Source: Phycisphaeraceae bacterium (GTDB taxonomy: Bacteria; Planctomycetota; Phycisphaerae; Phycisphaerales; UBA1924). From it: a stretch of 64,000 nucleotides of DNA. Below, one piece after another: positions 1-5,951 of the stretch. The stretch lies in the NCBI GenBank assembly GCA_019636795.1, contig JAHBWW010000005.1:186001-250000 (forward strand), written 5' to 3'. The translations under genes and the position numbers were made by a program. Each line of letters opens with the position of its first letter. The stretch's first letter is position 1. The notes beneath the pieces were generated by a model, which worked only from the letters and a program-made list of their open reading frames with translations, had not been told where the DNA came from and did not search any database.

Positions 1-53
1 GCACCCGGTTTGAGCCGTGCTCGCAGGTGATGATGATCGACCACCGCGATGAT

Positions 54-1325
54 TCAGGCATGGAAGAGGGTTCCATGTGCGAGGCAGGTTCCGAGTTCGT
101 GGTAGACATCGAGCATGCGTGGCCTGGTTGTGTCGCTGCCTAGCGCTTTGATGATGCGGGTCGAGAGCGTGCCGGCACGGAGCAAACGCGCGATGGTCGC
201 CGCGTGGGGAGCATCGCTTGCGATGGTGTGGGAGGCAATGTGCCGCCAGAGTTCTGCAGCGGAAGTAGGAGAGCAGAGACCGAAGGCTGAGAGTAGTTGA
301 GGATGCGTGATGCGGGCAAGTTCGCCATGGCGAATGGTGTCGAGCAGGGTGGAATGAAGTGATTCAGTGTCGGTGGATTGCTGGGCTGCGAGCCCCATCC
401 ACCGTTCTTCGATCAATGATCGCACGGCAGCGACAGTCAGGGCGACGACAGCAAGATCGGCTGCGGGTGATTCCTGAACATCGATGACGCGGATCTCGAT
501 GGAGCCTCGATCGAAGCGAGCGATACAGCCTCGACTGTTGGCCCATTCGTGGCGAAGAATTCCATCGGGGTCGAAGGGCGCGAGCGCGCGATAGACCGAG
601 CCGAGGACTTCGTGTTCGTAGTCGCGGCGTGTAAAAATGGGCTCAGGAATGACCAGCCCGGAGAGTTCGGGGATGCGGCGAGCATTCGAGCGATAGACCT
701 CGAGGCGGCTGTCGATGTAGCCAGTGATACGACCGTCGTGGATTGGCGAACTGGCTGCGAGCGCGGGGAGCAATGGCAGGACGAGCCGGATGGCTGCGTG
801 GAGGCGGCCGAATTCGTCGTCGTTGGCGAAGGGGAGGTTGATGTGTGTGCTTTGCAGGTTGGCCCAGCCGTGGCCGCGACAGTCGAAGATGCGGTTGAAC
901 GCTTCGTAGACCGCGTTGTATTCGTGCGGCCAGAGTTTCATTTCGAGGAACGGGTCCATCCATGGGTGCATCGCTGTGGGCATGAGCATGGCGTTGCGTG
1001 CTTCGAGCGAGCGATTGATTGATTCGACTTCCGTGGCGAAGAGTAGATCGACGCCTTCGAGCGATGCTACAGGTTCGTTGGTCTTGAGTTCGACGACATG
1101 GAGTGCGAGTTCGTTTGACCAGCCGATGATGGTGTCGTGGCCGTGTGGGTCGAAGTCTGATCGGTACTCTCCGGTGACATCGTGCATGAGCTGGTCGACG
1201 ATTGGTCGCACATCGAGAGTGTCACGATCGACGACCATATACTCAAGTTCGATGCCTGTTGCGCTGAGTTGTCCTCGCGGATAGTGATAGTGCTTTGGCG
1301 ACGGATTTGGGTCATTTTGAGTCAC
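54..1325 (-). CDS. GCS2-family carboxylate-amine ligase (glutamate-cysteine ligase-like)
   Basis: The 423-residue protein belongs to the glutamate-cysteine ligase type 2 superfamily, which joins an amino acid carboxylate to an amine using ATP. The family hallmark GIELEYMVVD lies at residues 24-33 and is followed by conserved NELALHVVELKT and by HGWANLQSTHINL. The natural amine is not predictable: many homologues outside true GshA make unknown amides. Its start overlaps the stop of the RimK-like gene by 4 bp, so it is the third gene of a coupled operon. No gene for glutathione synthetase is present in the window. I infer that it acts with the adjacent ATP-grasp enzyme rather than in ordinary glutathione synthesis. 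Confidence 0.87.
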   Translation of the reverse strand: MTQNDPNPSPKHYHYPRGQLSATGIELEYMVVDRDTLDVRPIVDQLMHDVTGEYRSDFDPHGHDTIIGWSNELALHVVELKTNEPVASLEGVDLLFATEVESINRSLEARNAMLMPTAMHPWMDPFLEMKLWPHEYNAVYEAFNRIFDCRGHGWANLQSTHINLPFANDDEFGRLHAAIRLVLPLLPALAASSPIHDGRITGYIDSRLEVYRSNARRIPELSGLVIPEPIFTRRDYEHEVLGSVYRALAPFDPDGILRHEWANSRGCIARFDRGSIEIRVIDVQESPAADLAVVALTVAAVRSLIEERWMGLAAQQSTDTESLHSTLLDTIRHGELARITHPQLLSAFGLCSPTSAAELWRHIASHTIASDAPHAATIARLLRAGTLSTRIIKALGSDTTRPRMLDVYHELGTCLAHGTLFHA

Positions 1326-2773
1326 TGGCGACGGGCCTCCATGCCTTTGAGGAAGTGTCGCATGATCGCTTCATAGAGCGCATCGCCCAGAATACGATCT
1401 TCGACTTCGCAGTCAATGTTCGGGTTGTCATTAACTTCCATGACCATTGCTGCGCCGCGGACGACTTTGAGATCCACGCCATAGAGACCGTTGCCAATGA
1501 GGCCTGCCGCTCGGACGGCGCAGCGAACGACGTCCTTTGGTGCGCGTTCGACCGGGATGGTCTCGACTTTGCCGAACTTGTGTCCGTCCTCTTCGTGCTT
1601 GAGGATCTGCCAGTGCGATGGAGCCATGAAATAACGGCAGACGAAAAGGGGCTTACCCCCAAGCACGCCGACACGCCAGTCGAAATCGGTTGGAACGAAT
1701 TCCTGTGCCACGAGGAGATCGGTTGTTTCGAAGAGTTCATTGGTGACGCGTTCGAATTCTTCGAGCGACTCGGCCTTGATGACACCGACGGAAAAAGAAC
1801 TGTCGGGCTTCTTGATGACGCACGGCAGACCAGTGCGTTCTGGCACTGTGGGCGCACCTTCGCGCCCGAATGTGACGGTGTGCGGCATGGGGATCTTGTG
1901 ACGAGTCAACTGTTCAGCCAGAAAGACCTTGTTGGAACAGCGCACGATCGAAACTGGGTCATCGATGACGAAGAGACCCATCGCTGCAGCACGGCGGGCG
2001 AAGCGATAGGTGTGGTGGTTGACGCTGGTCGTCTCTCGGATGAACAGGCCGTCATACTCGGCAATCTGGCCATAGGCGTCCTTGGTGATGAGTTCGCAGT
2101 CGATGCCGAGCTCCTCACCGGCGTCGCACATTTTATGAAGCGTTGGCATGTCCGAAGGCGGGAGTGCCTCCTTTGGGTCGTAGAGGATCGCCAGATCGAA
2201 GCGAGCAGGCTTCTTCGTCTTACCTCGGCTGGGTTTGCGTTTGAGGTATCGCTCGGCTTGCTCGGTGATGAATGGGCGGTGGTTTTCGGGGACTTCGCCG
2301 ACGCCGATGGCGCGCAGGCCTGTCAAGCGCCATTTGCCATCGCGTTCGAATGACGCGCGGAGCAACGGGGCGCTGAATGCGTTGAAGATGGCGAGCGAGA
2401 GTCTTTCGTACTTGGGCGAGAGGTTGCGTCCAAAGTAGATGCTGAGCACGAACTCGTCGGACTTGATCGCGCTGAGGCTCGACTGAATCAGATCGTCGAG
2501 TTCATCGCTGGCGAGGCGCACGACCGAGGACATTTTCAGATCCTGCATAACCGAAACGGAGGGCAGCGGCCTGTGTCCACGTGCCTCTGCCAGGAGCGAG
2601 ACGTAGTAACCTGCGGACTGATACTTGTATGAGCGGCAGAGATTGAAGACTTTTGTTCCCGGTTCAACTGCGAACTGAGGATCTTCGAGGTATTCGCGTG
2701 CCGCGACGACATCCGTACCAGCCATGCGAAGTGGCCAGCGTTTGGGATTGTCGACAACAACCAGGGCATTCAT
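1322..2773 (-). CDS. RimK-type ATP-grasp ligase with RimK-like N-terminal domain
   Basis: A 483-residue predicted amidoligase. Residues 1-200 form the domain typical of long RimK-family proteins, unrelated to the ATP-grasp core. Residues from about 270 to 470 form the ATP-grasp fold, with the nucleotide-binding segment around GLPCVIKKPDSSFSVGV and the metal-binding loop MEVNDNPNID (residues 445-454). Such enzymes form carboxylate-amine or carboxylate-thiol bonds through an acyl phosphate; RimK itself adds glutamates to ribosomal protein S6. The fused N-terminal domain and the coupled GCS2 and C39-peptidase genes (4-bp overlaps on both sides) point instead to a dedicated small-molecule or peptide pathway. 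The substrate is unknown. Confidence 0.9.
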   Translation of the reverse strand: MNALVVVDNPKRWPLRMAGTDVVAAREYLEDPQFAVEPGTKVFNLCRSYKYQSAGYYVSLLAEARGHRPLPSVSVMQDLKMSSVVRLASDELDDLIQSSLSAIKSDEFVLSIYFGRNLSPKYERLSLAIFNAFSAPLLRASFERDGKWRLTGLRAIGVGEVPENHRPFITEQAERYLKRKPSRGKTKKPARFDLAILYDPKEALPPSDMPTLHKMCDAGEELGIDCELITKDAYGQIAEYDGLFIRETTSVNHHTYRFARRAAAMGLFVIDDPVSIVRCSNKVFLAEQLTRHKIPMPHTVTFGREGAPTVPERTGLPCVIKKPDSSFSVGVIKAESLEEFERVTNELFETTDLLVAQEFVPTDFDWRVGVLGGKPLFVCRYFMAPSHWQILKHEEDGHKFGKVETIPVERAPKDVVRCAVRAAGLIGNGLYGVDLKVVRGAAMVMEVNDNPNIDCEVEDRILGDALYEAIMRHFLKGMEARRQ

Positions 2774-3537
2774 GCGGAGTGTTCCTTGAGTATGTGTCCG
2801 GATTTGGGTTCGATGACGAGCAGATTTCCGTCATAGGTCAAGACGCCAAGCAGAATGGCGCATGTGAGGCGTGACATAGGGACCTTGTAGTCAGCGGCAC
2901 CAAATCCGGGGTTATCGCCGAGGGGATCGGCGACGGAGACGAGTCTGCGTGCACGATTGAGCCCATGGAGGATAACGAAGTGCCCTTGCGGCATGCCTCG
3001 AACATCGTCATAGTCGTCGTTATCGCCATACTCGCGAGCACACTTGTAGAGGTAGGTTGAGCTGAGTCCTGTGAGGATCGGGAGTCCCTTAGTGAGGTAT
3101 CTGGCCAAGAGTGAGATTGTCAGATCCTGCGTTGCGATGGTGCCGCCGAGGGAAAGAAATTCGAGGTAGGCTTCGGTCGCCAAAGCGAACTTTGGTCCGA
3201 GGCTGCGTTTTGCAGCGAGTTGCTCAGTGAGGCGGGCTGACACCAGGTGTTCATCGGCTTCGCCCGTGGTGCGATCAAACCAGGTTGGGTCGAAGACTTG
3301 AAGGTTGAAGGTGATCAAATGCGCGGTGTAGCCGCGCCTGAGAGCGTCGATACCGAGCATGACGGCGAGAGTTCCGCGTCCGAGTTGTTCTCCGGGGAGA
3401 GCACGCGCTGAAGCGACGACTTCCTCGAGCGACACCGGATCGGCGAAGAATCGGTAGACAGCGTGCAGGCACGTTGGGCCGCACGTGATGTCATTGGGTT
3501 GCCATTGGATGTCGACGCCCAGTTCTACGGGGTCCAT
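2770..3537 (-). CDS. Peptidase C39-like (papain-fold) protein
   Basis: A 255-residue papain-fold protein. The catalytic Cys is C19 in NDITCGPTCL, the His is H186 in GHFVILHG, and D204 in VADPLG probably completes the triad. No signal peptide or membrane segment is visible, so a cytoplasmic amidase, peptidase or transferase is likely rather than a bacteriocin exporter peptidase. I start at the ATG at 3537 because AGGTGA precedes it by five bases and the conserved region follows directly; the frame stays open 46 codons further upstream to 3675, but that part is low-complexity and Arg-rich. It is the first gene of the coupled cassette with the RimK-like and GCS2 ligases. Confidence 0.82.
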   Translation of the reverse strand: MDPVELGVDIQWQPNDITCGPTCLHAVYRFFADPVSLEEVVASARALPGEQLGRGTLAVMLGIDALRRGYTAHLITFNLQVFDPTWFDRTTGEADEHLVSARLTEQLAAKRSLGPKFALATEAYLEFLSLGGTIATQDLTISLLARYLTKGLPILTGLSSTYLYKCAREYGDNDDYDDVRGMPQGHFVILHGLNRARRLVSVADPLGDNPGFGAADYKVPMSRLTCAILLGVLTYDGNLLVIEPKSGHILKEHSA

Positions 3538-3706
3538 AGAGTCACCTGTGAACCGGTGAGGGCGCGTGCGCGACCCATCCGGGAACATGAGCGTATCCGC
3601 GTGCCTGGGGGATTGTCGAGACGCATGCACGGACTTGCCGGGGAGCGGGGAAACCGGTGGTCTGCCACTGATCAAATCGCACTACGCTTTGGTACTGGAG
3701 CACGAG

Positions 3707-4801
3707 ATGCTTGAGGGAACCTGTGTCGCTTTGTTTGCCTTTGATGTGGGGTTTCAGATTGATTTGCCCAAGGCGGGTTCGCTGCTGGCGGGGGCGTCGC
3801 CGGTGGGTCTCAAGCGGGCGGGGAGGCCAAGTCCGGGGTGGTTCGACTTTGATCCACTTCCGTTAGGTCAGGTGGTGGAATCCGAGCCGGTGGCTGTGGG
3901 TCCGCTGCGGAGCGAGCCTGGCATCGAGATCGTGATGTACGACTTCGGGGCGGTCATTGCAAGCTTTCGCTTTCCGATGCGGGTCGAGGCGGAGCAATTG
4001 CCGGGCCTTGGCGAACTTCTCCTGAACAATCAGATTCTCAGACGCAAGGCGGAGGAAGCAGTAGGCCGGTTCCTGCAAGGCATCGAGGCCGCAATCGAGA
4101 GACCCTGTCTGCGTGATGTTGTTGAAGACTATGTGGTCTTCGCGATCGAGCGATGGGCCGATGGGGTCTCGCCCGAATCACTTGTCGAGGCGTGCGCGCA
4201 GTTTTTCGCACAGGCAGTCGAAGGAGAGACAGATTCGCTCTCGCCCGAGCAGGTGCGGCGGACGCTGGAGCCACGATTGAGTTACGGACCGAATGACCTG
4301 GCGATCGTGGACTGGAACGGTGCTGTTTTGTTTGATGCTGAGCCGGGCGACATTGTGGCGCTTCTTGCGCATGCGAACGTAGAGTTGCTTGAGCTGAGGA
4401 TTCTCGATCAGGAACTCGACAAGTTGCTCGAACGTGCGGATGAGACTCTTGCGAAACTTTCGCGGCGTCGTGCGTGGCCGGTGCTGGTCGAACCTCGACT
4501 TTTGCGAGAGTTTGCATCGGTACAAACAGATGCAGTTGTCACGTTTGAGGGGGTGAATAACGCGATCAAACTACTCGGCAATCAGTACCTGGCGCGCGTG
4601 TATCGACTGGCAGCGGGGCGTCTGGATCTTCCGGCGTGGCACAGCAGCGTGCAGCGGAAACTGGCAGCGACAGACAGCGTGTATCAGAAACTTTCGGATG
4701 CGGTGTCAATCCGGCGCATGGAAGTTCTGGAGATCATCATCATCGTCTTGATCGCGGTTTCGATCGTGTTGCCGTTCCTGCCATTCGGCAAGATTTATTG
4801 A
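3707..4801 (+). CDS. RMD1/YagE family (DUF155) protein
   Basis: A 364-residue member of the RMD1/YagE (DUF155) family, known from yeast sporulation protein Rmd1 and from the mitochondrial protein RMND1; the biochemical role in bacteria is not established. The signatures are CVALFAFDVGFQIDL near the N-terminus, the central GAVLFDAEPGD, a helical C-terminal half, and the terminal RRMEVLEIIIIVLIAVSIVL, which forms one membrane anchor with a very short tail. The ATG at 3707 is preceded by CTGGAG six bases away, so I prefer it to the upstream in-frame ATG at 3566, whose extra residues are not family-like. It is divergent from the C39-like gene, leaving about 170 bp for two promoters. Confidence 0.85.
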   Translation: MLEGTCVALFAFDVGFQIDLPKAGSLLAGASPVGLKRAGRPSPGWFDFDPLPLGQVVESEPVAVGPLRSEPGIEIVMYDFGAVIASFRFPMRVEAEQLPGLGELLLNNQILRRKAEEAVGRFLQGIEAAIERPCLRDVVEDYVVFAIERWADGVSPESLVEACAQFFAQAVEGETDSLSPEQVRRTLEPRLSYGPNDLAIVDWNGAVLFDAEPGDIVALLAHANVELLELRILDQELDKLLERADETLAKLSRRRAWPVLVEPRLLREFASVQTDAVVTFEGVNNAIKLLGNQYLARVYRLAAGRLDLPAWHSSVQRKLAATDSVYQKLSDAVSIRRMEVLEIIIIVLIAVSIVLPFLPFGKIY

Positions 4802-4832: not shown

Positions 4833-5951
4833 ATGCGTTGGTCCATTCGAATCGCGACTGCCTTTGGAATTGGCATCTATATCCACTGGACGTTCTGGCT
4901 GCTTGTGGCGTGGGTGTTCTATATCAACCTCAGCATTCAGAACAATGTAGCAGTTGCGGTCGAAGCTGTGGGGCTGATTCTAGCGATTTTTGCCTGTGTG
5001 GTACTGCATGAACTCGGGCACGCTCTGGCAGCACGGCGGTACGGCATCGGGACGCGCGACATCACGCTGCTTCCAATCGGAGGCGTCGCGAGGTTGGATC
5101 GCATGCCCGAGAAACCTGCGCAGGAACTCGTCGTTGCGCTGGCTGGTCCTGCGGTGAATGTCGTGATTGCCGGCGTGCTCGCGGTGGTGCTGACGGTGCT
5201 CGGTGACTGGCCGAAGCTCGAGAATGTCGAGTTTGCGAACATCAGATTTCTGTTCAAACTGATGGCGGTCAATGTGCTCCTCGTTGCTTTCAACATGATT
5301 CCGGCGTTTCCGATGGACGGCGGGCGTGTGCTTCGGTCGCTGCTGGCGATGCAGATGCCGATGGTGAGTGCGACTCGCATCGCGGCGAGGGTGGGTCAAG
5401 TGTGCGCGGTGGGATTCGGGCTGCTCGGGCTCTGGCTGGCGCATCCGTTTCTGGTGCTGATTGCGGTCTTCGTGTTCATTGCTGCGCAGCAGGAGGCCAA
5501 TGCGGTCGAAGCCCGTAGCGCAGTTGCCGGCTTGCGCGTCCGTGATGCGACCATGCGTGACTTCATGGTTCTTGCGCCGTCGGATACGGTTGCTCATGCC
5601 GCGAAGTTGTTGCTGGCGGGTTCGCAGACTGAGTTTCCGATCGTGGCCGAGGGCAAGCCGATCGGGCTACTCTCGCGTGATCGCATGATCGAAGCTCTTG
5701 CTGACGGAAAGGCCCAGACTCCGGTCACGGATTGGACGATCCCCGAGTGCCCGATTTTCAGCCCGCAGGATTCGCTTCGCGATGCGCTTGCTGTACTGGT
5801 CGAGAGTCGGTGCAGAGCAGCGATGGTGGTCGAGCACGATCGAGTAATGGGACTCTTGACGCTTGAGAACATTCATGAACTGATGATGGTGCGTTCGGCC
5901 ATGGCGACTCCACACAGCAGCGGGCCTCGTCGATCGGCGCGTGTGGTCTAG
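4833..5951 (+). CDS. Site-2 protease (M50) with tandem CBS domains
   Basis: A 372-residue intramembrane metalloprotease of the S2P/M50 group. HELGH at residues 59-63 supplies two zinc ligands and the catalytic Glu; the third ligand is Asp162 in NMIPAFPMDGGRVL. About six hydrophobic segments fill residues 10-215. A pair of CBS domains occupies roughly residues 228-350, suggesting control by adenine nucleotides or another small ligand. Family members cleave membrane-anchored regulators such as anti-sigma factors, but no obvious substrate is adjacent. It begins 31 bp after the RMD1/YagE gene and ends 12 bp before the sulfotransferase gene, so the three may be co-transcribed. Confidence 0.93.
   Translation: MRWSIRIATAFGIGIYIHWTFWLLVAWVFYINLSIQNNVAVAVEAVGLILAIFACVVLHELGHALAARRYGIGTRDITLLPIGGVARLDRMPEKPAQELVVALAGPAVNVVIAGVLAVVLTVLGDWPKLENVEFANIRFLFKLMAVNVLLVAFNMIPAFPMDGGRVLRSLLAMQMPMVSATRIAARVGQVCAVGFGLLGLWLAHPFLVLIAVFVFIAAQQEANAVEARSAVAGLRVRDATMRDFMVLAPSDTVAHAAKLLLAGSQTEFPIVAEGKPIGLLSRDRMIEALADGKAQTPVTDWTIPECPIFSPQDSLRDALAVLVESRCRAAMVVEHDRVMGLLTLENIHELMMVRSAMATPHSSGPRRSARVV

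Follow-up and report, generated by a model that had tools for sequence, protein, structure and literature searches.

The stretch of DNA considered here, referred to as the window, is 64,000 nucleotides long and covers positions 186,001 to 250,000 of contig JAHBWW010000005.1 in the assembly of a Phycisphaeraceae bacterium (GCA_019636795.1), a genome of 3.49 Mb in 8 contigs that is 97% complete. At its beginning lies a set of overlapping genes on the minus strand, which encode a papain-fold cysteine enzyme (C39-like), a carboxylate-amine ligase in which an RLAN domain precedes an ATP-grasp domain, a ligase of the GCS2 family and, mostly outside the window, a protein of the N-formylglutamate amidohydrolase (FGase) family. 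The C39-like gene (2770-3537) overlaps the RLAN/ATP-grasp gene (1322-2773) by 4 bp (2770-2773), and the latter overlaps the GCS2 gene (54-1325, with a GTG start) also by 4 bp (1322-1325), as given in the preliminary description of this DNA. The fourth gene (window positions 1-61) shares its first 8 bp with the end of the GCS2 gene, and its remainder extends to G000:C5:185348 (the complete gene being L039:5348-6061, equivalent to G000:C5:185348-186061). The preliminary description had taken the set as a single unit of three genes; that these genes form one unit, co-inherited and linked, is retained, but the unit has four genes, the FGase gene having been overlooked at the window edge. For the C39-like protein the homologues favour an ATG start, giving 255 residues; the mechanically derived open reading frame (ORF) opens farther upstream, with a TTG at 3675. 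The set is flanked upstream by a divergent gene (3566-4801, plus strand) and downstream by a convergent gene, named from its sequence as trigger factor, from which gene 4 is separated by a terminator-like hairpin. As far as can be read from the DNA, the operon would consist of exactly the C39, RLAN, GCS2, and FGase genes. In the source genome the RLAN/ATP-grasp, GCS2, and FGase proteins are each the sole copy.

The roles of the residues named below are, for all four families, taken from family knowledge. The C39-like enzyme, a stand-alone protein predicted to be cytosolic, has the papain/C39 fold with the expected Gln, Cys, His, and Asp residues, and none of Gln13, Cys19, His186, and Asp204 varies among 60 homologues, with Gln13 six residues ahead of the cysteine, in agreement with the intact Cys19, His186, and Asp204 described previously. 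Its score for Peptidase_C39_2 (PF13529) is 22.2 bits, slightly under the cut-off of 24, and the ComA peptidase is matched in sequence with E 4e-7. The AlphaFold2 model (predicted local distance difference test score of 94.7) superimposes on the PCAT-type (PCAT1) C39 peptidase 6mpz_B (Z 16.3, 134 residues, 2.0 A) and on the phytochelatin synthase Alr0975 of Nostoc (Z 16.0, 165 residues, 12% identity), and when judged from this model the two folds appear to match gene 1 equally well. The likeness to phytochelatin synthase includes the Cys-His-Asp order, possibly a chemistry on gamma-glutamyl peptides, and the His-to-Asp spacing of 18, which is also that of AtPCS1 (162/180) and CaPCS2 (189/207) (PMC9265389). 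Assignment as the C39 peptidase of a double-glycine exporter was considered and rejected, as the protein stands alone with 255 residues and its neighbours include neither a transporter cluster nor a conserved small ORF. PF11814 and GNAT domains were sought in gene 1 with Pfam, and no match was obtained.

The extra N-terminal domain that had been noted on the ATP-grasp ligase (483 residues) is RLAN (PF14401), which is matched by residues 25-171 (2261-2701, minus strand) with 163.3 bits against a cut-off of 25 and is fused to a RimK-like ATP-grasp domain (residues about 190-482; 1328-2206, minus strand). The ATP-grasp_3 and RimK models score 29.8 and 27.6 bits, respectively, both above their cut-offs, and the fold is of the LysX/ArgX/RimK type, with VIA-align Z values of 28.6 (LysX), 28.3 (ArgX), and 27.7 (RimK). 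In this domain, K321, D434, E446, and N448 are invariant in 50 sequences. The curated models give a different picture for RimK: the NCBIfam model of the S6 ligase, with a cut-off of 331 bits, scores 26.4, and the RimK family model reaches 63.5 of the 143.4 bits needed; the positions of Ser212 and Asn213, which are ATP contacts of RimK (PMC10092738), are occupied in the RLAN family by Ile390 and a mostly hydrophobic residue 391. The same genome has a separate canonical RimK-family ATP-grasp gene, scoring 100 bits (L120, G000:C1:588558-589124). The S6 protein of the source genome ends in ...DDEDGEDL.

The third gene encodes a GCS2 ligase of 423 residues, as described previously (PF04107; 82.9 bits, cut-off 21), whose core is kept over 41 aligned sequences, with 40 invariant columns. 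Assignment as a glutamate-cysteine ligase or YbdK equivalog was rejected, the best NCBIfam model, TIGR02050, scoring 56.4 against 176.4. A search of the Protein Data Bank (PDB) with the single sequence gave no match; a profile search reached YbdK and the plant glutamate-cysteine ligase. The characterised enzymes of the GCS2 family mostly act on free amino acids, with PafA and Dop of the wider superfamily as exceptions. The fourth gene matches PF05013 (77.9 bits, cut-off 28.9), and its nearest PDB entry is 2odf (Atu2144; E 1e-40). His15, Asp42, Asn73, His125, His129, and Glu205 of this putative zinc amidohydrolase are invariant in 39 sequences, and its family takes its name from the hydrolysis of N-formylglutamate. 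When classified by family, therefore, the operon is predicted to encode two ATP-dependent carboxylate-amine ligases and two amide-cleaving or amide-transferring enzymes, each with invariant putative catalytic residues, and the combination of two ATP-dependent amide ligases with one papain-fold cysteine enzyme, already proposed from the three genes, is supported by these matches.

The conservation of the cassette was examined in a sample of 83 loci (76 from related genomes and seven from contigs of named genomes) and in 246 genomes sampled across the phylum, in which a gene was counted as linked when within 6 kb of RLAN. The plain order C39-RLAN-GCS2-FGase is found in 45 of the 83 loci and C39-RLAN-GCS2 in 17 more, and some of the others reach contig edges. 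A 4-bp overlap is the commonest spacing both between C39 and RLAN (23/66) and between RLAN and GCS2 (29/67). In the 246 genomes, an RLAN gene is near the GCS2 subfamily in 47 of 50 copies and near the C39 subfamily in 43 of 46, such that the homologues are not normally separated, and the co-occurrence with RLAN has Fisher p values of 6e-33 (GCS2) and 2.5e-31 (C39) when genomes are treated as independent, although they are related. The genes are linked far beyond chance. Of the three GCS2 copies that are exceptions, one (L126, G187:C27:5000-12906) is a second cassette copy in its genome, with an RLAN fragment upstream at the contig edge. In four loci (L108, L109, L110, and L112) RLAN and GCS2 form one ORF, and in the fusion protein of L110 (990 residues) both RLAN and GCS2 are found by Pfam; from this fusion it can be argued that the two ligases share an intermediate. 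The four proteins have diverged in a correlated manner (Mantel p ≤ 0.001), with r between 0.44 and 0.80; it is 0.80 for RLAN/GCS2 and 0.71 for C39/RLAN.

The identical gene order is also found in contigs of Gemmatimonadota, Myxococcota, and Bdellovibrionota. In the RLAN protein tree most of the cassette ligases are in one clade, with the contigs of these three phyla nested inside, which suggests that the cassette has moved by horizontal transfer; the fused RLAN-GCS2 versions form a separate deep clade. The RLAN ligases that lack GCS2 mostly come with a GNAT domain. In L050, L067, and L105 a GNAT domain is fused in front of RLAN-ATP-grasp, with neither C39 nor GCS2 nearby, and in L075, L107, and L116 (Azospirillum) a GNAT-DUF3335 papain-like protein adjoins the RLAN gene. 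GNAT homologues are present in eight loci that have no GCS2, and in loci with GCS2 there is one weak match only (L104, E 7e-4); GCS2 and GNAT therefore look like alternative partners of the RLAN ligases. The pairs on the Azospirillum plasmid loci resemble the cassette in that RLAN-ATP-grasp adjoins a C39-like papain-fold protein, but there the C39-like partner belongs to another family (PF11814) and is fused to GNAT, and GCS2 and FGase are both missing, whereas the C39 protein of the cassette is a stand-alone protein that PF11814 does not match. In family f17 the RLAN domain and the ATP-grasp domain are two adjacent ORFs (L113:5855-7444 and L114:4318-6205), so that RLAN can form a separate subunit.

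When the neighbours of the 83 loci are clustered, the recurring genes are the four of the cassette, the divergent upstream gene (16 loci), and an antisense ORF cluster over the FGase position (12 loci), and no partner gene is conserved beyond the four. A conserved transporter gene cluster is not seen among these neighbours, and a search for conserved small ORFs within 700 bp on either side, in 17 loci of the nearest clades, gave none common to more than three loci. The absence of such small ORFs and of a transporter cluster favours a metabolite that is made from common precursors. The product of the divergent gene kept in 16 of the 83 loci has 411 residues and no Pfam match; its C-terminal hydrophobic stretch recalls the RMD1/DUF155 proteins. 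Further along the window (4833-5951, plus strand) lies a gene for an M50 metallopeptidase with CBS domains, likely a site-2-protease-like membrane protein.

The reading preferred here, for which the chances are judged to be about even, is that the four enzymes, translated as one unit, form a dedicated cytosolic pathway in which a small glutamate-derived (gamma-glutamyl) amide is first made and afterwards remodelled. In such a pathway the GCS2 enzyme would activate the gamma-carboxylate of glutamate, or of a close analogue, and join it to an amine. The RLAN-ATP-grasp enzyme would then activate a carboxylate of this product as an acyl-phosphate, adding a further amino acid or amine, and this two-ligase logic would be that of glutathione synthesis. 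The papain-fold enzyme, acting in the way of phytochelatin synthase and of C39 peptidases, may form a thioester on Cys19 and hydrolyse the gamma-glutamyl peptide or transfer it, and the FGase-like metalloenzyme may cut an amide that has an acidic amino acid on its amine side, for trimming or recycling. Iyer et al., in an amidoligase survey of 2009, reportedly predicted uncharacterised peptide or amide pathways that combine ATP-grasp, GCS2, and peptidases, and in the same survey and the Pfam text RLAN is said to be linked to papain-like peptidases, GNAT, and GCS2. The FGase as fourth gene, the RLAN-GCS2 fusion, the near-obligate linkage, and the alternation of GCS2 and GNAT are computed here. 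A characterised product of the cassette was not found in the literature searched, which is also what the preliminary description had stated.

Several observations weigh against this reading. The correlated divergence, when taken alone, supports co-inheritance rather than function, because the genes may be inherited jointly. The distribution is patchy, any RLAN being present in 36 of 101 relatives and in 65 of the 246 genomes of the phylum. The FGase may be optional, because only 33 of the 49 copies of its family in the phylum-wide sample are near GCS2, a looser linkage than that of the other genes, and some unlinked copies occur in genomes that carry the cassette. Finally, all four predicted activities would also fit the modification of a protein end. 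Six of the unlinked FGase copies (L127, L128, and L130-L133) were inspected for more pathway genes, and nothing recurrent was seen. At another locus (L129:3906-5356, G221:C456), C39 and FGase are adjacent without the ligases, the fused ligases sitting on another contig, and the C39 copy is interrupted by an internal TAG.

Protein tagging or side-chain modification must be taken seriously as a rival, because the enzymes with the folds closest to the ATP-grasp domain (LysX, ArgX, and RimK) all act on proteins or carrier proteins; it is nevertheless considered the less probable of the two readings, a tentative one. The RLAN-ATP-grasp enzyme would here add acidic residues and the GCS2 enzyme another unit, and both hydrolases would erase these, in a manner like that of RimB and RimK, which are an established ligase/hydrolase pair for the polyglutamylation of RpsF (PMC12239564). 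The cassette shares with that pair a related ATP-grasp ligase and an opposing hydrolase, and it differs in that none of its four genes encodes a retropepsin and in its low scores for the curated RimK models. The operon is also without committed biosynthetic genes, as tagging would have it. Against tagging, no gene for a conserved substrate or carrier adjoins the cassette, either among the neighbours of the 83 loci or in the small-ORF search of the 17 loci, and the characterised GCS2-family enzymes, as mentioned above, mostly have free amino acids as substrates.

A glutathione- or phytochelatin-like thiol would be a special case of the gamma-glutamyl amide pathway, in which gamma-Glu-Cys would be formed by the GCS2 enzyme and extended with a third residue by the ATP-grasp enzyme, the papain-fold enzyme being phytochelatin synthase-like. 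This case is regarded as unlikely, and equally so the proposal that, in bacterial groups from which no low-molecular-weight thiol is documented, the cassette makes a new thiol of the gamma-glutamyl kind or an oligomer of such a thiol that binds metal, with GCS2 and RLAN replacing GshA and GshB and the papain-fold enzyme in the role of phytochelatin synthase. Glutathione needs just two ligases, and their fusion, GshF, is known (PMC13338154); the ligases of the cassette are also fused in some species, with the domain order reversed, ATP-grasp being first in the RLAN-GCS2 fusion. The source genome has no match for GshB (PF02955) and none for BshC, and its only GCS2 is that of the cassette; in addition, Planctomycetes and Verrucomicrobia are listed as being without a documented or predicted low-molecular-weight thiol (PMC6282198). 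The near-tie of the papain-fold model with Alr0975 and the His-Asp spacing of 18 are also in agreement with a thiol pathway, but the C39 peptidase fold ties equally, the patchy presence is unlike that of a main redox buffer, and cysteine would be the substrate by analogy. The cassette further differs from glutathione synthesis in its RLAN domain and in the extra papain-fold and FGase enzymes.

Maturation of a ribosomally synthesized and post-translationally modified peptide of the graspetide type, in which the ATP-grasp enzyme would cyclise and the C39 enzyme would cleave a ribosomal precursor, is very improbable: an ATP-grasp enzyme and a C39 peptidase are indeed the graspetide parts list (PMC8939145), but the 17 loci have no conserved precursor-like small ORF, an ABC transporter is neither attached nor recurrently nearby, and the scheme has no place for GCS2 and FGase. 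That the ATP-grasp enzyme is merely an S6 (RpsF) glutamylase with incidental neighbours is the least credible of all, since, despite the overall fold shared with RimK, the curated models, the replaced ATP-pocket residues, the second RimK-family gene, and the linkage statistics count against gene 2 as a canonical RimK, so that the proposal of the preliminary description is not refuted on this point.

The gamma-glutamyl amide reading thus concerns a compact candidate pathway of two amide ligases and two amide hydrolases, which are almost always together, often translationally coupled, and present in several phyla, and for which the exact four-gene set for expression is now defined. If the product proves to be a thiol or a protein tag, a real gap would be filled; an accessory conjugate would instead be a new entry for natural gamma-glutamyl metabolism.

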